Positions 1 through 18,823 of a stretch of DNA of 64,000 nucleotides are shown one piece after another; positions within the stretch are counted from its first letter, which is position 1; each line of letters begins with the position of its first letter. The translations under genes and the position numbers were made by a program. The notes beneath the pieces were generated by a model. It was not told where the DNA came from and ran no database searches. It worked only from the letters and a program-made list of their open reading frames with translations. The DNA is from Amia ocellicauda (Eukaryota > Chordata > Actinopteri > Amiiformes > Amiidae), in assembly GCF_036373705.1 (NCBI RefSeq), contig NC_089858.1, positions 37,039,137-37,103,136 of the forward strand. The letters are read 5' to 3'.

Positions 1-2127
1 TGTATTTTTGCTTTCATTCTGCAAAATGTTTTGTGTCTGCACATCAGTGTGTTTTGACAGGGGGTGTTTTTGAATAGGGTTTCACTGTAGAAGAATGCAA
101 CATTTTCAGTGGAGACAAATACTGTAATCCATTTACACAACTGATGTACGGATGCGCAGGGTTCTGAATGATAGATGAAAGGAATAGGAGGGGATCATAA
201 TAGGACTTCCTGTGGGCAGAAGCTTTTTCTACCTCTTTGACACACCACCAGCATGGTCATAAAAAGCAGAAACAGTAAATTGGGTACAATCCTCAGTCAG
301 GTAACTTGAATTATGAATTATGTTCAAAGTTATATCAAATATCCACTTTCTGCAACTTTACAATGTTATTCCGATACAAAAAGCAAGCTTTAAATATCAC
401 TGTGTCCAACTTCCTATCTTGCCACTGTTGAAAAGGATGCTATATATAACCAGGCTAGACTGGACTTCCGCATTGATGGGGTGAAAGTCCATAATCCTGA
501 ATTATGATAAGTCACACACAGCCACAAAGCTGGACAGTGGCCTGGTTAGAGTCTGACCTCCACCGCATATAACATCTCAGGACTGAGCTAGACTGGTGCG
601 GAGTACAAATCATATGCCACATCTGTCACTGCACTACAAGTGCTGTGGAGGCAATGGGTTTGTATTACACCAGTGCTCTAATGTGTTACAGTGTTAAATA
701 CACTGTGAACCTTTGTTTTTATATTATAGTTGCATATGAAGAACAGAGCGCCTGCTGTTCATTTTCTATTACCTATCTAGAAACCTTTGCTTTTATTCTT
801 CTAGCTACTGCTTGGAGGTTCACAAGGATTTCAGAGGGGGTGTTTTCTGAAATCCTAAAGGTTTTTAATACAGTCTAGACTGACCGAGAGGGGGAACTTT
901 TAGTTTGCAACAACGTGAAAGAGACAAGATGCTGGAACTAGGAATGTGATGGCCCATTCTAATTTTTTATACATTTTGTGTAATTTGCAGTTGGTTTGGT
1001 TTTGCTTCATTTCAGTGATTTCGGAAGTGCAAGGCTTCACTGTAAACAGACTGTGTTGAGTATAAACTGTGCTTTCCTGTTGTCTCCATCTCAGAGCAGT
1101 CTTGGAATTAGGATGCGTGCCCAGCAGCACAACTTCTGGTCGAAACAAAACAAAACAAAACAAGAACAAACAAAATAAAAACAAATTGCACAGAATAAAC
1201 AAACATGAATAAACACTGTCCTTCCCATCAACATTCCTCATGTATAACTCTCAGCCCTGTATCTGAAGTAGAACTGTGCCTACCGGTTCTGGGTAAAAAG
1301 GTAGACTGATGCCAGTCCCACGTTCCGCTATTTCTGCTTCTGCTTATCTATGTATATATGGAAGGTATAAACCAAAATGGCTCCTGTGGTTCCAGCGATA
1401 TACGTGATGAGGCCTGAGGCAAAGGGTTATACATTCAATTATTAAAATAATTAATTAGTCAGCACACTCACTGTCACGCCAGACCTTCCTGAAAGAAGTA
1501 ATTCCCTTAGATGAAATAGCCTCTGGGTTCCCTACAGTCAATATTAAGCCTTCACCTGCTTTGCGGTGAACACCACATTCAGAACAGAAAGAAAAACCAA
1601 AGCTGGCCACATCTCAGTGCTGTGTCCAACAGTTGTGTTACTGTTAGGTTTCTCTTACAAATCCATGGGTTTTCTGAACACAGCCCAGGTGTCAATGAAA
1701 GGGAACTATGGGCTTGTCTGTTTGGTTCAGGTATTCGTTTATTGAGTGTGACACACACTTGAGTGGCTAAGTGATAGTGTGTTACCTTATTACATAACGT
1801 CAAGATTTGGCGAAGTGAAAACGTCCTCGACATAAAATAAAGGCCGTAGACGTCTGCACAGCAATGCCAGTATGTTTGCTTTGGGTGTAACACCAACAAA
1901 AATGTCACTATCTGGTCACACCTCTCCTACCACAGCAAGCGAGACAGCCATGGCAGCATTATCAGAGTCAGTCCTTCATCCTGGAATAACAATTCATATC
2001 CCCCATAAAGAACTATGCATGTGTTTGCGAATTCATACACACATACAGTATATTAATATTATGTGTTATACGACTTTGAGTACAGCATATAGTACACACA
2101 CTGTTGGATACTTACTGAATAGGCCTA
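1..2127. other. GRK intron 1, distal part
   Basis: Non-coding sequence lying inside intron 1 of the minus-strand GRK gene whose first exon is at 4501-4552. I looked on the minus strand for the expected second GRK exon (a basic Lys/Arg-rich stretch, then the start of the RGS-homology region) and saw none, so intron 1 probably runs past the left edge. Short open frames here lack splice context and resemble no family. The stretch is A/T-rich with no recognisable repeat until the Tc1 element begins. Confidence 0.5.
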
Positions 2128-2355
2128 CAGTGAGGAAAAAAAGTATTTGATCCCCTGCTGATTTTGTTTGTTTGCCCACTGAAAAATAAATGATCAGTCT
2201 ATAATTGTAATGGTAGGTGTATTTTAACAGTGAGAGACAGAATAACAACAAAAAAATCCAGAAAAACGCATTTCAAAAAAGTTATACATTGATTTGCATG
2301 TTAATGATGGAAATAAGTATTTGATCCCCTATCAATCAGCAAGATTTCTGGCTCC

Positions 2356-2443
2356 CAGGTGTCTTTTATACAGGTAACGAGCTGAGACTCTCTTAAAGGG
2401 AGAGCTCCTAATCTCAGCTCGTTACCTGTATAAAAGACACCTG
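2356..2443. repeat. 32-bp-arm palindrome inside Tc1 copy A
   Basis: The arm at 2356-2387 and the arm at 2412-2443 are perfect reverse complements (32 of 32), separated by 24 bp. The palindrome lies between the inner terminal repeat and the transposase start at 2486. In copy B the same feature has 44-bp arms and a 9-bp loop, so copy A appears to have lost about 10 bp from the end of its left arm. It could fold as a hairpin in DNA or in the transposase mRNA leader. Confidence 0.85.
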
Positions 2444-2485
2444 TCCACAGAAACAATCAATCAATCAGATTCCAAACTCTCCACC

Positions 2486-3489
2486 ATGGCCAAGACCAAA
2501 GAGCTGTCCAAGGTTGTCAGGGACAAGATTGTAGACCTACACAAGGCTGGAATGGGCTACAAGACCATCGCCAAGCAGCTTGGTGAGAAGGTGACAACAG
2601 TTGGTGCGATTATTCACAAATAAACCCAAAACCCAAAATAACTGTCAGTCTCCCTCAGTCTGGGGCTCCATGCAAGATCTCACCTCGTGGAGTTTCAATG
2701 ATCATGAGAACGGTGAGGAATCAGCCCAGAACTACAAGGGAGGATCTTGTTAATGATCTCAAGGCAGCTGGGACCATAGTCACCAAGAAAACAATTGGTA
2801 ACACACTACGCCATGAAGGACTGAAATCCTGCAGCGCCCACAAGGCCCCCCTGCTCAAGAAAGCACATGTACAGGCCCGTCTGAAGTTTGCCAACATCTG
2901 AATGATTCAGAGGAGAACTGGGTGAAATTGTTCAGGTCAGATGAGACCAAAATCGAGCTCTTTGGCATCAACTCAACTCGCCGTGTTTGGAGGAGGAGGA
3001 ATGACCCCAAGAACACCATCCCCACCGTCAAACATGGAGGTGGAAACATTATGCTTTGGGGGTGTTTCTCTGACAGGACAACTGCACCGCATCAAAGGGA
3101 CGATGGACGGGGCCATGTACCGTCAAATCTTGGGTGAGAACCTCCTTCCCTCAGCCAGGGCATTGAAAATGGGTCGTGGATGGATATTCCAGCATGACAA
3201 TGACCCAAAACACACAGCCAAGGCAACAAAGGAGTGGCTCAAGAAGAAGCACATTAAGGTCCTGGAGTGGCCTAGCCAGTCTCCAGACCTTAATCCCATA
3301 GAAAATCTGTGGAGGGAGCTGAAGGTTCGAGTTGCCAAACGTCAGCCTCGAAACCTTAATGACTTGGAGAGGATCTGCAAAGAGGAGTGGGACAAAATCC
3401 CTCCTGAGATGTGTGCAAACCTGGTGGCCAACTACAAGAAACGTCTGACCTCTGTGATTGCCAACAAGGGTTTTGCCACCAAGTACTAA
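2486..3489 (+). pseudogene. Tc1 transposase pseudogene (copy A)
   Basis: The frame opens with MAKTKELSK and runs through the N-terminal helix-turn-helix region until a stop near 2621. The protein signal then continues in other frames to the family C-terminus (ANKGFATKY) at 3489. A second frame break sits after LKFAN at about 2898, at the same place as in copy B. A short deletion near 3070 breaks the GCFS region. The catalytic triad is still readable: SDETK, then QHDNDPKH, then NPIENLW, with 34 residues between the last D and E (DD34E). No functional transposase can be made from this copy. Confidence 0.92.
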
Positions 3490-3673
3490 GTCGAAGGGGT
3501 CGAATACTTATTTCCCTCATTAACATGCAAATCAATTTATAACTTTTTTGAAATGCATTTTTCTCTCACTGTTAAAATACATCTACCATTAAAATTATAG
3601 ACTGATCATTTCTTTGTCAGTGGGCAAACGTACAAAATCAGCAGGGGATCAAATACTTTTTTCCCCCACTGTA

Positions 3674-4500: not shown

Positions 4501-4552
4501 CTTCTCTCGCCTTCAGAAGTACCGTGTTGGCCACTATATTTTCCAGCTCCAT
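4501..4552 (-). CDS. GRK4/5/6-family G-protein-coupled receptor kinase, first coding exon only
   Basis: Read on the minus strand from the ATG at 4552, the exon encodes MELENIVANTVLLKARE and ends one base into a glycine codon at a GTAAGA donor (4495-4500). This peptide is the highly conserved N-terminus of the GRK4/5/6 group. In that family it forms the amphipathic helix that docks on the activated receptor; the rest of the protein (RGS-homology and kinase domains, C-terminal membrane-binding region) would lie left of the window. The split glycine matches the known first-exon boundary of human GRK5. An ATG in the same frame upstream, at 4672, is not used by the family. GRKs phosphorylate active GPCRs so that arrestin can bind. 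The peptide alone cannot tell GRK5 from GRK6 or a fish-specific paralogue, so no symbol is given. Confidence 0.9.
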
Positions 4553-7139: not shown

Positions 7140-7806
7140 TAATCTGTAAATTGGACCCTAAAAACATCTGGGTCAGATGGCCTAGATCCTTTCTTCCTTG
7201 AGGTAGCAGCCCCTATTATCGCAGAGCCTCATCTTTTTAACTTATCATTTCACTCTTCAGAAAATCCAAACGCTTGGAAGGCAGCTACAGGTCCTTTATT
7301 TAATGGGGGAGATCAAGCTGATCCTAACTGTTATAGGCCAATTTCCATCTTGCTTTGTGTTTCAAAGGTGCTGGAAAAACTTTCTTGATGTTAACAGTAT
7401 CCTCTCTGATATACAATCTGGTTTCTGTTCTAGTTTTGGATGTTTCACTGCAACCCTAAAAGTCTTAAATTATGTTACCGTGGCCCTTCACACAAAGTAA
7501 TGTTGTGCTTCTATATCTATTGATTTGGATAAAGCCTTTGATCAGACCATTCCATCCTTGTGGGCCGCCTAACGAGTATTGGTGTCTGTGAGAGGTCTTT
7601 GACATGGTTCACTAACTATCTCTCTCAAAGGGTCCAATGTGTATCACAACATCTGCTGTCTCCTACCTGTAACCAAGGGTGTATCACAAGGCTCGATTTT
7701 AGGCCCCACACTTTTTTCTCTCTTTCTCTCTCTATATATTTATTTATTTATTTATTTATATATAAATAACATAACGCAGGCAGTAGGAACCTCTCTCATT
7801 CACTTA
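7140..7806 (+). pseudogene. LINE reverse-transcriptase remnant, upstream part
   Basis: Conceptual translation in shifting frames gives reverse-transcriptase landmarks of a fish non-LTR retrotransposon: SGSDGLDPFF, WKAATGPLF, DPNCYRPIS, SKVLEKL, LSDIQSGF, GRLTSIGV, WFTNYLSQRVQCV and VTKGVSQGSILGP. Several frameshifts and stops interrupt it. A (TTTA)n stretch at about 7737-7760 breaks the region after the GSILGPTLFS motif. The frame reaches SLIHLY just before the expected YADD box, where a DNA transposon end is inserted at 7809. The remainder resumes at 9383. Confidence 0.8.
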
Positions 7807-7808
7807 TA

Positions 7809-7970
7809 CACTACCCATCAAAAGTTTTAGAACATTTTCCCAGTTTTTTTTTTTACATTTAAGCAGTTCAAGTCCAGTGAATAACTTGAAATGGTACAAA
7901 GTTTAAGCGGTAAACTGCCAGAGGTTAAAAAAAAAAGTTTAGGTTACCAAAAATGTACATTTCAGAGTTA
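7809..7970. mobile_element. Fragment of a second Tc1-like element (left end)
   Basis: The sequence after TA (7807-7808) starts CACTACCCATCAAAAGTTTTAG, which I recognise as a terminal sequence of a fish Tc1-like family. It is followed by A/T-rich subterminal sequence. It interrupts the LINE frame exactly at a TA and is itself interrupted at TA 7971-7972 by the DD36E element. Its right end is not clear: GGTAGTGTTA near 9230 may be a decayed terminus, and about 190 bp before the LINE resumes are unassigned. Confidence 0.6.
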
Positions 7971-7972
7971 TA

Positions 7973-9193
7973 CACTCACCTAAAGGATTATTAGGAACAC
8001 CTGTTCAATTTCTCATTAATGCAATTATCTAACCAACCAATCACATGGCAGTTGCTTCAATGCATTTAGGGGTGTGGTCCTGGTCAAGACAATCTCCTGA
8101 ACTCCAAACTGAATGTCTGAATGGGAAAGAAAGGTGATTTAAGCAATTTTGAGCATGGCATGGTTGTTGGTGCCAGACGGGCCGGTCTGAGTATTTCACA
8201 ATCTGCTCAGTTACTGGGATTTTCACGCACAACCATTTCTAGGGTTTACAAAGAATGGTGTGAAAAGGGAAAAACATCCAGTATGCGGCAGTCCTGTGGG
8301 CGAAAATGCCTTGTTGATGCTAGAGGTCAGAGGAGAATGGGCCGACTGATTCAAGCTGATAGAAGAGCAACTTTGACTGAAATAACCACTCGTTACAACC
8401 GAGGTATGCAGCAAAGCATTTGTGAAGCCACAACACGTACAACCTTGAGGCGGATGGGCTACAACAGCAGAAGACCCCACCGGGTACCACTCATCTCCAC
8501 TACAAATAGGAAAAAGAGGCTCCAATTTGCACAAGCTCACCAAAATTGGACAGTTGAAGACTGGAAAAATGTTGCCTGGTCTGATGAGTCTCGATTTCTG
8601 TTGAGACATTCAGATGGTAGAGTCAGAATTTGGCGTAAACAGAATGAGAACATGGATCCATCATGCCTTGTTACCACTGTGCAGGCTGGTGGTGGTGGTG
8701 TAATGGTGTGGGGGATGTTTTCTTGGCACACTTTAGGCCCCTTAGTGCCAATTGGGCATCGTTTAAATGCCACGGCCTACCTGAGCATTGTTTCTGACCA
8801 TGTCCATCCCTTTATGACCACCATGTACCCATCCTCTGATGGCTACTTCCAGCAGGATAATGCACCATGTCACAAAGGTCGAATCATTTCAAATTGGTTT
8901 CTTGAACATGACAATGAGTTCACTGTACTAAACTGGCCCCCACAGTCACCAGATCTCAACCCAATAGAGCATCTTTGGGATGTGGTGGAACGGGAGCTTC
9001 GTGCCCTGGATGTGCATCCCACAAATCTCCATCAACTGCAAGATGCTATCCTATCAATATGGGACAACATTTCTAAAGAATGCTTTCAGCACCTTGTTGA
9101 ATCAATGCCACGTAGAATTAAGGCAGTTCTGAAGGCGAAAGGCGGTCAAACACAGTATTAGTATGGTGTTCCTAATAATCCTTTAGGTGAGTG
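7973..9193 (+). mobile_element. Complete DD36E Tc1/mariner transposon
   Basis: A 1,221-bp element with 29-bp perfect terminal inverted repeats starting CACTCACCTAAAGGATTATT, flanked by TA duplications at 7971-7972 and 9194-9195. It contains a single uninterrupted 346-codon transposase frame. Perfect ends plus an open frame suggest a recent insertion, in contrast to the decayed LINE and Tc1 fragment that host it. The spacing of the catalytic residues places it in the DD36E group of Tc1/mariner, a group reported in several animal lineages. Confidence 0.95.
8121..9161 (+). CDS. Tc1/mariner transposase, DD36E, apparently intact
   Basis: 346 residues, a usual length for the family, from ATG 8121 to TAG 9161. 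The N-terminus has the paired helix-turn-helix DNA-binding region ([20 protein letters not shown] at about residues 21-40), followed by a basic linker. The catalytic RNase-H-fold core shows D in WSDESRF (about residue 155), D in [10 protein letters not shown] (about 248) and E in [10 protein letters not shown] count 36 residues between the second D and the E. The C-terminus, KAKGGQTQY, is typical. It would excise and reinsert the element at TA sites. There are no stops, frameshifts or missing catalytic residues. Whether it is expressed cannot be told from sequence. Confidence 0.93.
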
Positions 9194-9382
9194 TATACTG
9201 TTACGACACCCTCTTAAGCATTATTTGGTAGTGTTACGTGCAGCTCCTGTGCATAGAAGTTACACGGTATTCCTATAATGCGCACATCGTTTGAAAGCTT
9301 ATTGTCTTGGCTACCAGCGCGTTTCACTCTCAAACACATCCGATTTACAGTTTCTGTGTTGCCTGCCATTATTCAGCCTGTG

Positions 9383-10471
9383 TTATACTCAGCTTGTCCC
9401 TCCCCTGAATTTGTGCTAAATGTTCTGCAACAAAGTTTTTTGAGTATCCAGCAAGCTTTCTCTGCCCTTAACCTTATTCTAAACATCTCTAAAACAAAGG
9501 TCATGTGGTTTGGTAAGAAGAATATCTCATCTTCCCCTGGTGTGATTACTACAGCTGAGGGTGTGGAGCTTGAGTAAGTCTTACAAGTACTTGGGAATTT
9601 GGCTAGACAACACACTGTCCTTGTCGCAGCACATCTCCAAGCTGCAGGCCAAGGTCAAAGCTAGACTTGGGTTGCCCTACCGCAATCTTTCATCTTTTAC
9701 CCAATCTGCTAAACTCACCCTGATTCAGATGACAGTTTTACCCATGCTAGATTTTGGAGATGTAATTTACAGGTCGGCAGGTAAGTGGGCTCTTGAGCGG
9801 CTAGATGTTCTCTACCATTCAGCCATCAGATCTGCCACCAATGCTCCTTACAGAACACATCACTGCACTCTGTACACCTCCATAAATTGCCAATCACTAT
9901 ATACCTGATGCAAAATCCATTGTAGCTTATTTACAAAACCCTCTTAGGCCTTACACCTGAGATTTTTGCATCCTTCCTCCTCCATTTATAGCCCTCACTC
10001 TGCTAGTCATATCCTAAAGCAAGCACATCTTTGGATCGCTCTTCCTTTCAGTTCTCCGCACCTAGCGATTGGAATCAACATTCAAAAAATTATAAAATGA
10101 TCTACATTGCTATTTTTAAAGACACAATCACTAACATATTTACTGATACTTGCAATTGCTTCATTTGATGTGCCAGTTTACTGTAGTTCAGGTGTGCTGT
10201 TCTGTTGTTACCTATAATGTTGTACACATATTTGTGTCCTGCTGTATTGTTTTTGTCTGCTGCTAGGTCTATGTTTTTAGGTGTAGTTTTGTGGTATCTT
10301 TCTCTGTGACCGGTTAGGATGTTTCTTGTTGTGTACTGGGTGGTTTGTCTTTTTTTATTTAATACCAATACCCATACCCTACAGGAGACTTTTTTTTTTT
10401 GCCTCCTGCCAGGCTGTTATTTTAAATAAGAATTTGTTCTTAATTAACTTGCCTGGTAAAATAAAAAATAA
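9383..10471 (+). pseudogene. LINE remnant, downstream part and 3' tail
   Basis: The LINE resumes with CPSPEFVLNVLQQSF and continues through SKTKVMWFGKK, SYKYLGIWLDNTLS, LTLIQMTVLPMLDFGDVIYR and RSATNAPYRTHHC, all C-terminal reverse-transcriptase landmarks, with frameshifts near 9575 and 9905. Weak similarity goes on to about 10080. The end, AAATAAGAATTTGTTCTTAA at about 10424 followed by CTTGCCTGGTAAAATAAA, is the widespread fish LINE 3' terminus with an A-rich tail. The element is dead. Confidence 0.8.
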
Positions 10472-11881: not shown

Positions 11882-13966
11882 TCAGTATTCGTCCAACGTG
11901 TCTGCTCGTGGGAGAGAGAGTCCACGGTCCTTAAGTGCTTGGAGTTTTACTTTCTCCGCCTCCTGTTTAGCTTGCTGTTCAGACCTCTGCTCTTCCAAAA
12001 TCTCTTCGATGGATACTTGCTGCAGGACTGTGTCACTCTCTTTCTCCAGGTCCTGGGAGTCAAACAAATCAAGTCAGGCTCTTAAAACATTTAAAACATC
12101 AAAGAGTGGGAAGAAAAGTCCCACAGATAGTAATTACAGGCCAGATGTGTAAAATAGCTGTCATGCATTTCACCTTTAAACCCACCCACACATTAAAACA
12201 GATTACATAATATAATAAATCACCCAAATCTCCTAAGCGAGTGTATGCTTTTGTGGGGAGTTTAGCAGATTTTTTTATTTTTATTTTTTAAAGGGGCACT
12301 TTGATTATCTGCAAAGTAGTCTGCAATTTAAATAGTTACCTTACAGAAACTAGCATTACACAATTTGATCTCCAAAGGTTTAGACTTGGCCCCTCTCTCC
12401 TCACTTCACCCCCTTAAATCCAGTCTACTGAAGCTTGTGACTTCATACACTTAATTTATCAGTCCAGAACTAGGAGTCATATTACTACACAATTTCTTAG
12501 CAGACTTAAAATTGTTATATCATGTTATTTTTTACAATTACCCATTTATACAGCTGGGCATTTACTGGAGCAATCTAGGTAAAGTACCTTGCTCAAGAGT
12601 ACAACAGCTGTGCCCCCACCCATGACCCTGTGCTCCAGAGTCCAGAGCCCTAACCACTACTGCCCTATTATTAAACTATTATTGCCCTATCATAGCAATA
12701 CTTCTGTCTTCATTGCCTAAAGTTACCACCACTGCTTTCAAGTTCTGCAAGCAGAGACAACCCACTTACGATTTCCCCAAGCAGAACCACATTCTCCCCT
12801 CTCACGATGAATATTCCTCGAGGGATGTCTCCATATTTCTTGCCAACGTGGATGCGCTCAACTGTTTGATGAAGGACTAAATTTGCTGCAAACAAAAAAA
12901 AAAAAAAAAAAAGAGATGAAATGATTTATGACAAACTAAAGGTCTGGGTGTTAAGTGCTGGTCTACAGAACACAAACTGAACTATGCTTTGCCAGGCACT
13001 GCTAACAACTCTGCCACCAAAAACAGGGTATTTCTAAATAAGCCTGAATAAACCAGGAGAGTGCCCTGCTTCCAGAGGCCCAGAATAAAACCCTGCCTGT
13101 GCATCTAATCACAGCAGAGTCCCCCTGAGATCAATTACACTGGAGTTTTACTTCTGTAACCTACACCCGGTCTGAAGTTGGGCAGTCAGAGCAAGATTGA
13201 GTTGCTGTTATACTGCACATTATATAATTGCAGCATTTCTCCACTCACAAATACCTTTTACACTTTCGCTTTTCTATATTAGGCATCACAGGCAAATACA
13301 TCAAATCTGAAATCAAACCAAGGGAGGGTGCAAACAGCAACACAACACTGCATTCACTGATTAGGCCAATATCGGCGGGGGAAATCAATATGTAAAATTG
13401 AAGTTTTGACCACTGAAGCTGCGGCACAGACATGCACACTAACTCTTGCAGGTGTACTTACATACCAAACTGATCGATGCTTCTCAGAAACCCAATTAAC
13501 GTCCTGCCGTCTCGCAAGAGGACTAGATGTTTTTCTGCAAATAGAGAAGACGAAATGAAGCAGCGAAGAGGCGTGCGCATAAGCTTACTGTGGCCATTGG
13601 TCTTCATCGCATCCATTAACAACACTGACCAACATATTCTGCTATTCAGCCATTAACCCCATAGGCACGTTTCATCACGCAGGGTGCAAAGCCAGCTCCC
13701 CATTTCATAACACACCGCATACGCTCCTACAGTCACTTTTCTTGTCGTCTTGAAACGCTTAGCACAGACGAGTACCATTTTATGTCGTGCAAATAACTTT
13801 TCTTTTACGTCCCTCGCGTTTCGATATGGGAGAGAGAGAGAAACACTGCTTCACAACTCAAGTGCTTCACAATGCATTTCGCCTGTTACCCCCACCACCT
13901 TGAATCCCATTTTGACTCACTATCAATGTCTTCAATGAGACTCGCTGTCCCCGGCATGTAATTCAT
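11882..13966 (-). CDS. LSM1: U6 snRNA-associated Sm-like protein LSm1
   Basis: Four coding exons on the minus strand: 13921-13966, 13466-13534, 12770-12885 and 11882-12052. All have GT-AG junctions and consistent phase, giving 133 residues, the human length. The start reads MNYMPGTASLIEDIDKK. The Sm1 motif covers about residues 16-43 (HLVLLRDGRTLIGFLRSIDQ) and the Sm2 motif about 64-77 (FIVRGENVVLLGEI), with the RNA-contacting Arg-Gly at 67-68. The last exon encodes the charged C-terminal helix ending RADTLDEY. LSm1 defines the cytoplasmic LSm1-7 ring, which with PAT1 binds oligoadenylated mRNA 3' ends and promotes decapping in P-bodies. It is head to head with BAG4, as in human 8p11. No defects seen. 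Confidence 0.98.
12530..12668. repeat. Dispersed fish repeat in LSM1 intron 3
   Basis: The stretch containing ACCTTGCTCAAGAGTACAAC and AGTCCAGAGCCCTAACCAC resembles a motif found in very many fish genomes. The evidence is recognition of the motif; the family name is uncertain. It sits between LSM1 exons 3 and 4 and does not touch the splice sites. Confidence 0.5.
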
Positions 13967-14999: not shown

Positions 15000-17900
15000 A
15001 TGTCAAGTTTGAAAAGCCCAGGAGCAATGGCGTACGAGTCGGTGGGTAGCGACAGAGCTGCGGTCAATGGTGGAGAGAACCCAGTGCAATCCAATCCGAA
15101 AGGAAGCTGGCCTCCTTATAGCAGCTACTCGGGAAATAACGAGGGGTCCGCCGCGATGGTGCCCGGGAGCGGGCGAGACGTGCCCAGAGACTCGAGTTGC
15201 GATCGCCAGTTCAGAGACCGTGCACACAATACCGGGGAGCTAACCGATGCACTGACTCGATCCGAGTTCATTATGCAGTGCATGTCTGAAGATCAGTGCT
15301 GATTGCCAATGCACTTAGATTAAGACACTACATGTCCTCGTTTTGACGGTGTTTCGGATATAAGCAGCTGCTTATCTTCAGAAGTAACTGTACGTTTGAA
15401 CCAGAAGCACGTTTCATTTGAATAGATGCATTAGATTTGAATAATGAATGCGCAGTGTGCATATAGGTGTGTATATATATATATATATTTAGTCTCCGGA
15501 GTATTTTTTTGTTTGGTCCTAGGTTCATGATTGTATTTTGAACAATGCAAACAGTTGTCTCAAAACGACAGAAATCAGATCGTGTCCCAGGCAGGAAGCA
15601 CTGGTTTTCAATCTGGGAAACTTTGCGCTGTACACAGATGATCAGCTGATTGAGTTGTCAAGGAGCTTGTGGTTAAATACAAAAAATAAAACTTTGAAAT
15701 GGTTAAACTGTAGGAACGCAATACGCTTTGGTCAGTAGATTAGGGGATACTGTTGCTATTAAAATATTTAAAGATGCACAGAATTAAACAGAAATCTGTT
15801 GGCATACGAAACGCTAGTTATTATATTGTTATAGTATTGCAGTTAATGCTGTGTGTTGGCGCTTGTAGTTATTATGCACACTGTGTAACTGTTGCTTACG
15901 ATTCCAGCAAAAATAATACTTCTAACCATCAACACTGAAACGCATTGGAGAGAAAATGGGTAATACAGTAATGCTAGGATATGATTTTGATCTTTTCAGT
16001 GTGTACAATACAATGAATAACCAGCTTTGAACAAGTTTGAAAATCTCAATTGATTTGGGGATTTCCCCTAGCCTGGAATACATGGGGAATCTTCTTTGTG
16101 TTGCCAGTGCAGTGTTCACAGACCATACAAAAGACAAGAAACTGAATTAACGAGGAACACAAAGTGGATCAGATCCTCTCAGACCCACCCTTTAAGCTGT
16201 GCAAAATCTAACAATAGAAAGACACTGACAGTGGAAAACAAGTATGTTTACATGGCAACTTTTTGTGGTGTGGTAGCAAGTGACAACATGCTGGCCAAAG
16301 CAGCAATGTAAATTACAGAGCATTGAACTGTCCCCTCCCAACTGCAGGGTGGCGAGAGGAGTTTGGGAGGGACTGGTTTTACTGGGACATAAAGCTTTGT
16401 CAGTGTAACAATTGCAGTATCCTGTTTTTTGCTCCCCACAGGAAGCAGTACCTTACCCTGGATATCCTTCCAACTTCTGGTATCCACCCTCCCATTCGGC
16501 CAGTCCATATTCCAATGCATATCCGGCAGGGTCAGAGGTCAACGGGCATGCAGCCTATAACCCGCAGGTATGGTACAGAGTTAAAACCTCTCATCCTGCA
16601 CAGGGCCTGTCCTGGAATCTCAATGGTCCCCAACTCTCCCCTCTAGAGACCAATACATTTTAACAACCTCCGCAGCAATCATTAGTGAGGCTCGCCAGGG
16701 TGTCTGCCTGTGTTGAAGGTCATTTTGAGTTTTGCGAACAACCCTGCTAAGGAAACGGGCAGTTGAGGGCTGGAGGCCCAAAGTTGTTTGGCTTGTGTTT
16801 GTGGGCTGGAGCAGAACCAACACAGATGTAGAAGCATCTTGTCTTGGGATGCCTGAATAAGCACACTCTGTGACTAAATGAGCACAAGAATGGCACCCTG
16901 GAACCGTCCCCCGGCCCTTCGAATACACTAAATCCCTTCTTGCAAAGCAATGATTTTGTTCCACAAGGCTTGTATAATCGATTAACTTCAAACTGGCAGC
17001 ATCGCCCTTTACCGTAGGCATAGGGTGTAGAAAACACAGGAACCTTTTGTCCTAAGTATTGTAAGTAGGTCTAAAGTAGACAAGAATACTGTAAGAATGA
17101 TTCCAGGAGTGACAAGCAGTGGTTGGGAGTAACTGTTCAATTGTGCTGTAAATATGAGGAATTAAAAAACCCTTCATTGCCATATGCAGTTCAGAAGTGA
17201 TGTTTGTTTGTCCATCTCTTCTCAGGCACTTCTCCCAGGTCTCCTTTGCCTGCCCTGTCGAAAGTGTGTTGGTATATAGTTTTCTCGCTCACTCTTGGGT
17301 TCCATTTGCTTCACAGGCGATCCCCGGCTACCCTAACGGAGTCTACAGCCCGGCACAATACCCCAGTCCCCTCCATCCCACGAACCCCTTCTACTGCGGT
17401 GACGCCCCCCCAGGACAGCCCCCCTACCCATCCCAGGGCTGCCCCGAACCCCGGACCACAGGACCGGGGGGACACCCGGTCCACCATCCCCGGTACCCCG
17501 TCCAACACTGCCAGGGGGTAGGCCACTGTTGTTTGTTTTCCTTTGCTCTGGACAAGGCTCGTCTGCAGTGCGTAGTGTGTCATGGTGAAACGCCAGCAAT
17601 TAAATTGTGTTCCAGCCTGCCAATGATCAACCACCTACAGCTGTTGTTCTTGTTGTTCTTGTTCCTTTTATTTATCTGGGTGACTCAAGAAGGAACTTAA
17701 TAAGCTGCTGTGTGCAAAGATAATGCATTGTGGAGTGGCTAGGAAGGAGAGTGTGTAATACAGTGTAATAAATGCATTCTAGGGTCCTGGATACCCAACT
17801 GGACCCTATCATCACTACGGGGACGGAGTTCATCCTATGCCCCAGAACCATGCATATCCCACCCAGCCTGGACTGCACTCGAGGCCCCCAGCGGAGGCCT

Positions 17901-18823
17901 GGTCGCACACTGGGGGCTACGGGCCGCCACCACCTCCGCCCCAGCAGCAGCAGTGGCCGCAAGGACCCCAACCTCCGCCGAGCCACTACGGGAACCCCTT
18001 CCTCTCCCCACAGCCCCCATCCTGGCCTGGTCCCGGCCCGACCGCGCCACAGTATGACCCGCAGGTACCTGCTGTCGAGCAGTGTAGCTTGCCAAGCCCT
18101 GACTTGCAAAGCTGAGCTGGGGTGTGGTTGGTTACTTTGGTTTCTAAAGCTTTGAGGAACCCGGTGCCATCCTCTTGTGTGCATAGCTTCTTATGTTGAG
18201 GAGACGCACAAGGGAATGTGGTAGCTGGAGATTTGATCTGGTGTTCTGGAGGGCATCAGGGAGAAAAGTTGAGAATGTAACCCAGTCTAGTTGTGCTCAA
18301 AGGTTCAAGCATAGCTCATGTTTCTGTAATTTCTCTGTTTCTTTTCTTCTTGGTTTACAAACAGGACCCTCAGTATGCAGGCTACCCCCACCCAAAACGG
18401 CCTCCTCAGCCCACTGGACCTAAACCCCGGCCGCCGCATCCCAGCCCAGGACAGGCCGGGGAGTACAGCGCGCCCCCTCAGCTGTACGTGAAGACCGGGA
18501 AGGCCCAGGACCCCACACCCTCTCAGGGGGAGCCACCGCCGCTGCCACAGGGACCCACCGGCCCCCCGCTGAGTGACAACCCCAGCCTGGCGCACGTGCA
18601 GCAGGTGCTGGCCCGGGTGGAGCTGCTGCAGGAGGACGTGGATGTGTTTGTGGGCTACAAAACGGACAAGAGCTACCGCTATCTGGAGGAGCTGCTCACC
18701 AAGGAGCTGCTGGAACTCGACTCCGTGGAAACCAAGGGGCAGGAGGCCGTGCGGCAGGCCAGGAAAGAGGCCGTGCAGAAGGTCCAGGGCATTCTCGACC
18801 GGCTGGAGAGGAAAGCTTTCTGA
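15000..18823 (+). CDS. BAG4: BAG family molecular chaperone regulator 4 (SODD)
   Basis: Exons: 1 from ATG 15000 (donor unresolved), 2 at 16442-16567, 3 at 17317-17517, 4 at 17783-18064 and 5 at 18365-18823. Exons 2-5 all start in phase 0 and have AG/GT borders. Exon 2 (EAVPYPGYPSNFW) aligns with the human exon-2 start. Exons 2-4 encode the long disordered region rich in Pro, Tyr and Gly, including a PPPPPP-QQQQ run. Exon 5 ends in the BAG domain (last ~80 residues; DVFVGYKTDKSYRYLEELL, then ELLELDSVET), the three-helix bundle that binds the HSP70 ATPase domain and speeds nucleotide release. BAG4 also silences TNFR1-type death receptors in mammals. Possible phase-0 exon 1 donors are after 15041, 15158 or 15179, giving about 369 to 415 residues. 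The N-terminal part diverges strongly from human. Confidence 0.95.
15180..16441. other. BAG4 intron 1 (approximate)
   Basis: Non-coding, A/T-rich sequence with a short TA microsatellite at about 15474-15489. If exon 1 ends at 15041 or 15158, the intron starts correspondingly earlier. No other exon was seen. Confidence 0.5.
16568..17316. other. BAG4 intron 2
   Basis: 749 bp between the GTATGG donor at 16568 and the acceptor ending at 17316. Open frames on both strands lack splice or family support. No repeat recognised. Confidence 0.6.

Follow-up and report, generated by a model that had tools for sequence, protein, structure and literature searches.

The window, a stretch of 64,000 nucleotides from contig NC_089858.1 (here C9) of Amia ocellicauda, contains the first exon of an intact GRK gene, which is very probably the fourth GRK4/5/6 ohnologue of the two early vertebrate genome duplications (2R), located in the FGFR1 paralogon. 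We base this reading on the intact gene and its conserved motifs, on its map position and on its placement outside the GRK5 pair in AU tests. The genome searched comprises 988 Mb in 385 contigs, the others being referred to by number in the same way.

Structure of the gene

Exon 1 consists of 52 bp with the sequence ATG GAG CTG GAA AAT ATA GTG GCC AAC ACG GTA CTT CTG AAG GCG AGA GAA G, followed by the donor sequence GTAAG. It encodes MELENIVANTVLLKARE and provides one base of the following codon. An 18-residue bait for the N-terminus of GRK5 matched it with 100% identity over 18 residues (E 8.5e-8, 264 kb searched). The search included 200 kb to the left of the window, where the later exons were located by further baits and their borders then fixed. 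After exon 1 come fourteen more coding exons, all on this strand and in the correct order and phase; each is preceded by AG and followed by GT, and the introns are of the GT-AG type. The match of exon 1 is therefore not due to chance. The spliced frame of 15 exons (1,674 bp, 558 codons) is free of stop codons, and on this ground we rejected a stray exon or a pseudogene. Human GRK5 has 16 exons according to the accessible text of PMC5020398. No exon 16 with a variable tail like that of human GRK5 was found on reading past exon 15.

A previous sequence-only reading of the window had recognized the 52-bp exon by its conserved GRK4/5/6 N-terminus and its donor phase, had placed it beside LSM1 and BAG4, and had proposed to look for the rest of the gene to the left. 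The exon stands as described, the kinase exons are present within the assembled 15-exon frame, and both neighbors lie in the window, LSM1 as tblastn matches and BAG4 with its BAG domain. The coordinates of all features are given in Table 1.

Table 1. Features of the GRK gene and its surroundings on C9 (window positions count from the first base of the window)
Feature	Position	Strand	Remarks
AEBP1-like gene	C9:36919204-36924506 (36.919-36.925 Mb)		distance to the GRK gene about 80 kb
ASH2L	C9 36.982-36.986 Mb	plus	found with a longer ASH2L bait
STAR	C9 36.988-36.991 Mb	minus	
GRK gene	C9 37.0047-37.0437 Mb	minus	
GRK gene, exons 2-15	C9:37014748-37004716	minus	24.4-34.4 kb to the left of the first base of the window
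GRK gene, exon 1	window 4552-4501	minus	start codon 4552-4550; GT donor 4500-4499
Tc1-like element, second copy	window ~2120-3670		shorter frame
LINE reverse-transcriptase-like stretches	window ~7160-10100		by eye
Tc1-like transposase	window 8121-9161	plus	346-aa frame, by eye
LSM1	window 13966-13916, 13535-13464, 12886-12770, 12067-11885	minus	tblastn, 82-97% identity to the bait; 11885-13966 are match limits, exon borders approximate
BAG4 coding region	window 15001-18823	plus	start inferred by eye, exons read from sequence; reading frame ends at 18823
BAG domain of BAG4	window 18596-18811 = C9:37057732-37057947	plus	PF02179 match

Neighborhood on C9

Human 8p11 carries ASH2L, STAR, LSM1, BAG4, DDHD2, FGFR1 and TACC1. 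A comparison with C9 shows that the GRK gene occupies the gap between STAR and LSM1. To the right, at a distance of 0.75-1.3 Mb from the GRK gene, C9 contains matches to TACC (37.80 Mb), DDHD (37.85 Mb) and FGFR (38.30 Mb). The FGFR match is 90% identical to an FGFR1-like bait, with one TAG reported within it. In the 264 kb around the GRK gene, baits gave no match for FGFR, DDHD2, PLPP5, NSD, LETM, TACC, RGS10, TIAL1, INPP5F, EIF4EBP1 or a short piece of ASH2L. ASH2L is placed beside star only in tetrapods and spotted gar in the 10-species comparison of PMC9141715, as far as its accessible text goes.

The AEBP1-like gene encodes a carboxypeptidase and has an odd insert rich in Gly, Arg and Glu in one matched stretch. 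The window also contains mobile elements. The longer Tc1-like transposase frame is apparently intact and lies 3.6 kb from exon 1 of the GRK gene; it was read as such by eye, with DESR, QDNAPCH and NPIEHLWD blocks. This Tc1-like element interrupts the LINE reverse-transcriptase-like stretches.

Other GRK genes of the genome

Searching the genome with one late exon gave hits at seven loci, and each of the seven candidates was scored. Four of them are of the GRK4/5/6 type (C9, C26, C19 and C11, with 100, 91, 91 and 76% identity); the remaining three, on C6, C20 and C7, reached 48-57% and were read as GRK1/7-type. Compared with the human proteins, the gene on C11 scored best with GRK6 (848 bits, GRK5 756) and that on C19, by a narrow margin, with GRK4 (769 bits, GRK5 763). 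The C19 gene and human GRK4 are also paired in the tree described below (UFBoot 98). Over exons 6-15, the C26 gene shows 88.0% identity to human GRK5. Since separate GRK4 (C19), GRK5 (C26) and GRK6 (C11) genes are present, the C9 gene is an extra copy. Among solved structures, the best matches of its protein are GRK5 with 1000 bits, GRK6 with 928 and GRK4 with 859, and the alignment with human GRK5 spans the full length (residues 1-557).

The sequence-only reading had allowed for a GRK5 or GRK6 that was moved to this location by a chromosome rearrangement. Such a gene would share the family resemblance, but both turn up elsewhere (C26 and C11). With all three relatives found at other places in the genome, a relocated GRK4, GRK5 or GRK6 is refuted, and the probability that we assign to relocation of GRK5 or GRK6 is negligible.

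In the same genome, 16 of 38 RGS-domain matches fall within 0.5 Mb (C25:22.50-23.00 Mb), some of them reading through stops. This local cluster comprises perhaps eight genes, if each has two exons.

FGFR paralogons and duplication history

With the FGFR bait we obtained seven matches, which fall into four loci on C9, C26, C19 and C11. These loci and the GRK4/5/6 genes pair one-to-one by chromosome (4/4), for which the chance is about 3 in 100,000, assuming about 29 chromosomes of equal size (contig numbers run up to C29). Only the FGFR on C9 was named by identity to the bait; the names FGFR2, FGFR3 and FGFR4 (C26, C19 and C11) were taken from the linked GRK genes and not from a tree, and the pairing is independent of them. 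The nine TACC matches, all above the cut-off, are restricted to C9, C26 and C19; two of 14 prokaryote controls also matched in this search, below the cut-off. DDHD matches (13) were found on C9, C26, C23, C28 and C27, and BAG matches (six) on C26 (one), C9 (one) and C27 (four). On C26 the BAG match is located 52 kb and the first DDHD match 155 kb from the GRK5 exon. GRK5 is thus accompanied on C26 by another FGFR and its own BAG gene, and the C9 gene by an FGFR1-like gene, BAG4, LSM1 and STAR. The linkage to the FGFR2 paralogon that characterizes the GRK5 group was not found for the C9 gene. Comparing neighbors across the FGFR paralogons, as proposed by the sequence-only reading, places four GRK4/5/6 genes on four FGFR-bearing chromosomes, one copy in each paralogon, as in a 2R quartet. 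Nordstrom 2008 (PMC2453138) treats the FGFR of this paralogon, and the accessible part of that article makes no mention of GRK.

The distance between FGFR and GRK amounts to 15.0 Mb on C26 and 15.7 Mb on C19, and stays within 1.3 Mb on C9 and 0.4 Mb on C11. The spacing of about 15 Mb counts against a tidy paralogon picture; the C26 and C19 paralogons have undergone large internal rearrangements. The four BAG-domain matches on C27 follow one another within 1.5 kb (C27:19582465-19583922), consistent with a BAG5-type multi-BAG protein.

A Hox13 bait gave 54 matches in all (150/157 candidates scored). Four of them have 88-97% identity, and the next drops to 61%. Hox-like matches form four groups, located on C10, C7, C3 and C22, and each group contains one of these four. 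A teleost would carry about six Hox13 genes. From the single set of four we conclude that the genome most likely did not pass through the teleost duplication. This bears on a different origin of the C9 gene, namely as a copy of GRK5 from the teleost (third) duplication, which is the explanation given by Mushegian et al. 2012 for the second GRK5 of zebrafish. The accessible text of PMC3307776 describes two zebrafish GRK5 paralogues, one of them fast-evolving, and attributes them to that duplication. The score of the C9 protein, which is closest to GRK5, agrees with this published view; the Hox13 count and the different neighbors of the C9 gene and GRK5 argue against it. With only four Hox13 matches in the genome, we rejected a teleost-duplication copy.

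Phylogenetic position

The tree covers exons 6-15 (415 columns, about 410 residues) and comprises eight sequences: human GRK4, GRK5 and GRK6 and, as outgroup, a solved GRK1, these four taken from printed alignments, and the four proteins of Amia ocellicauda, the one fish included (fish GRK4, GRK5 and GRK6 in the following are the genes on C19, C26 and C11). This region was set by the sequence obtained, which covers GRK4 and GRK6 from exon 6 and GRK5 from within exon 3. Within it, the C9 protein is 79.8% identical to human GRK5 and 79.5% to fish GRK5, the latter two being 88.0% identical to each other.

We applied the AU test to thirteen topologies, using seven models (JTT+G4 and six others). 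Trees in which the C9 gene nests with fish GRK5 were rejected (p 0.0011-0.027 for three trees and seven models), as was its placement with human GRK5 alone (p 0.0105-0.0305, seven models). Placements with fish GRK6 (p <=1.6e-4) and fish GRK4 (p <=6.7e-4) were rejected in all seven models, which is a further argument against relocation. For a sister position to the whole GRK6 pair or the whole GRK4 pair, p ranged from 0.025 to 0.046 and from 0.017 to 0.051, respectively. A position basal to all three of the other genes lies inside the AU confidence set, as does that of a sister to GRK5; the basal one has the best likelihood in 7/7 models. With GRK1 as outgroup, the two deep branches receive ultrafast bootstrap values of 60 and 67. 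By the SH test, no tree that nests the C9 gene within GRK5 was excluded (p 0.195-0.237 with outgroup, JTT+G4; p 0.07 and 0.096 without). When GRK1 was omitted, the best of five trees joined the C9 gene to the GRK5 pair (aLRT 95.5, UFBoot 96). The AU values were then 0.008 for fish GRK5, 0.030 for human GRK5, 0.053 for the GRK6 sister and 0.023 for the GRK4 sister position, and the SH values over the alternative placements ranged from 0.07 to 0.25. A nesting with human and fish GRK5, the mark of a GRK5 orthologue, is thus contradicted by the AU test, the SH test not being significant.

Individual sites were also compared. Thirteen of them unite human and fish GRK5 against the C9 protein and the other five sequences. 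The C9 protein shares five residues only with fish GRK5, four only with human GRK5 and seven with both; three are shared with the GRK6 pair and two with the GRK4 pair. The five residues common only to the C9 protein and fish GRK5, together with the SH tests, are compatible with a GRK5 copy from the teleost duplication. The 13 sites and the AU rejection of the fish GRK5 nesting in 7/7 models oppose it, and we give this origin a small probability.

The basal placement, which the best tree with outgroup shows with weak support and which all seven models prefer by likelihood, would be expected if the C9 gene were the sole survivor of a duplication before 2R, for instance of a tandem copy. One GRK4/5/6 gene per FGFR chromosome, however, is the outcome of a single ancestral gene passing through two doublings. 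In addition, the split of the C9 gene and the GRK5 pair from GRK4 and GRK6 in the tree without outgroup agrees with the BAG and DDHD neighbors common to C9 and C26. A pre-2R origin therefore has, to our judgment, a very small probability.

At sites that are invariant in the other six GRK4/5/6 sequences, the C9 protein is changed in 15 of 250 cases, including W175V. Leaving out one sequence at a time, the corresponding counts are 5/240 for human GRK5, 4/239 for fish GRK5, and 5 for human GRK6, 5 for fish GRK6, 16 for human GRK4 and 7 for fish GRK4 (of 239-251 sites). Judged from these counts, the C9 gene looks faster-evolving than GRK5 and GRK6 and about like human GRK4.

Taken with the separate GRK4, GRK5 and GRK6 genes and the pairing of one GRK gene per FGFR chromosome, the AU tests support a fourth ohnologue, which the sequence-only reading had put forward as a candidate: kinase exons follow exon 1, and the AU test rejects a nesting within GRK5 or GRK6, although the SH test does not exclude it for GRK5. 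The AU results and the equal distances to both GRK5 proteins suggest that the duplication predates the split of ray-finned fishes and tetrapods, without confirmation by the SH test. To judge from one paper's sentence on human, mouse and chicken, the C9-type gene would have been lost in the amniote line.

Protein motifs and proposed function

The C9 protein has the architecture of the subfamily, with the GRK N-terminal helix and an RH domain that is split around an AGC-type kinase domain. Its first 25 residues are identical to human GRK5. The kinase motifs GKGGFGEV, ACKK, YRDLKPEN and ISDLG are present, the basic patch KRKGRSKK is retained, and the activation-segment-tether (AST) region, RAVYCKDVLDIEQFST, matches GRK5. 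The N-terminal helix, P-loop, ACK lysine, YRD, DLG and AST are all there, and the catalytic core residues are intact. In exon 15, PRRSLLDRLFRRH matches the GRK5 helix segment and keeps its amphipathic pattern; exon 16 and with it the true C-terminus were not found. Human GRK5 and the GRK5 on C26 have the same domains as the C9 protein and about 80% identity to it from the kinase domain to the C-terminus. The C9 gene differs from them as a separate lineage by the AU test, in its chromosome and neighbors and in the number of changed invariant sites (15/250 as against 5/240 and 4/239). The C-terminal amphipathic membrane helix of GRK5 is described in the accessible text of PMC3307776, where the fast zebrafish paralogue is said to be without a C-terminal motif; the C9 protein, in contrast, has the helix segment.

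Based on these motifs, the product of the C9 gene would most likely be an active, membrane-bound receptor kinase. We propose that it works as GRK5 does, with activity, receptor choice and expression all being predicted. The N-terminal helix would dock on the activated receptor, and the RH-kinase unit would then phosphorylate the receptor tail. The basic patch together with the C-terminal amphipathic helix would hold the enzyme at the membrane. Arrestin would subsequently end receptor signaling.

Fish grk5 genes in the literature

According to the accessible text of a paper on flatfish (PMC9141715), grk5, lsm1 and bag4 lie downstream of star, and this grk5 is absent in human, mouse and chicken. 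The fish gene between star and lsm1, which is listed as grk5 there (Ensembl/Genomicus), has the same position as the C9 gene and is almost certainly its orthologue. The locus is therefore already known under the name grk5. The paper uses it as a synteny marker under this name, and its accessible text carries no remark on non-orthology to GRK5. Our literature search found no statement that the star-linked fish grk5 is not GRK5, and no title on a fourth GRK4/5/6 ohnologue in a search without most subscription journals.

Zebrafish Grk5l has been used to study how the heart develops, how left-right asymmetry arises and what variants of human GRK5 do. It is described as the closest zebrafish homologue of GRK5 in the text accessible to us. 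The reported residues and the linkage to aebp1 lead us to favor, on balance, the view that Grk5l is the orthologue of the fourth ohnologue that is absent from humans, and not of human GRK5. According to PMC5020398, in which variants of human GRK5 were tested by means of Grk5l, the zebrafish protein carries Ser at the position of human residue 464 and Arg at that of residue 549. The C9 protein has Ser at position 464, where 7/7 other aligned GRKs have Pro, and Ser at position 549, where the six GRK4/5/6 sequences have Gly. Both proteins thus have Ser 464 and both are changed at 549, although to different residues. Positions 464 and 549 both belong to the 15/250 sites changed in the C9 protein, which for two random invariant sites has a chance of about 0.003. 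Position 425 is neutral (Ser in Grk5l, Ala in the C9 protein, Thr in GRK5), and positions 298 and 304, with the same residue in the C9 protein and GRK5, are uninformative on Grk5l.

As to the linkage, the accessible text of PMC9925722 states that ray-finned fishes have two aebp1 genes, with grk5 and grk5l lying upstream of them, and attributes the two blocks to the teleost duplication. In Amia ocellicauda the AEBP1-like gene on C9 is close to the GRK gene, and the one nearest to GRK5 on C26 is about 2 Mb away. The AEBP1 copy most like the human one is located at C18:9.50 Mb, and the late-exon search gave no GRK on C18. Both fish genes, grk5 and grk5l, may perhaps be of the fourth type.

Significance

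The C9 gene belongs to a known family, in which it is well placed, and our literature search did not find its identity noted. With this gene, a single genome contains the full quartet of GRK4/5/6 genes that 2R would be expected to produce. With respect to naming, the star-linked fish grk5 is, on present evidence, not the orthologue of GRK5. If Grk5l is of the C9 type, fish tests of human GRK5 variants use a paralogue that is absent in humans, and fish "GRK5" phenotypes would have to be attributed instead to a GRK type lost in amniotes.
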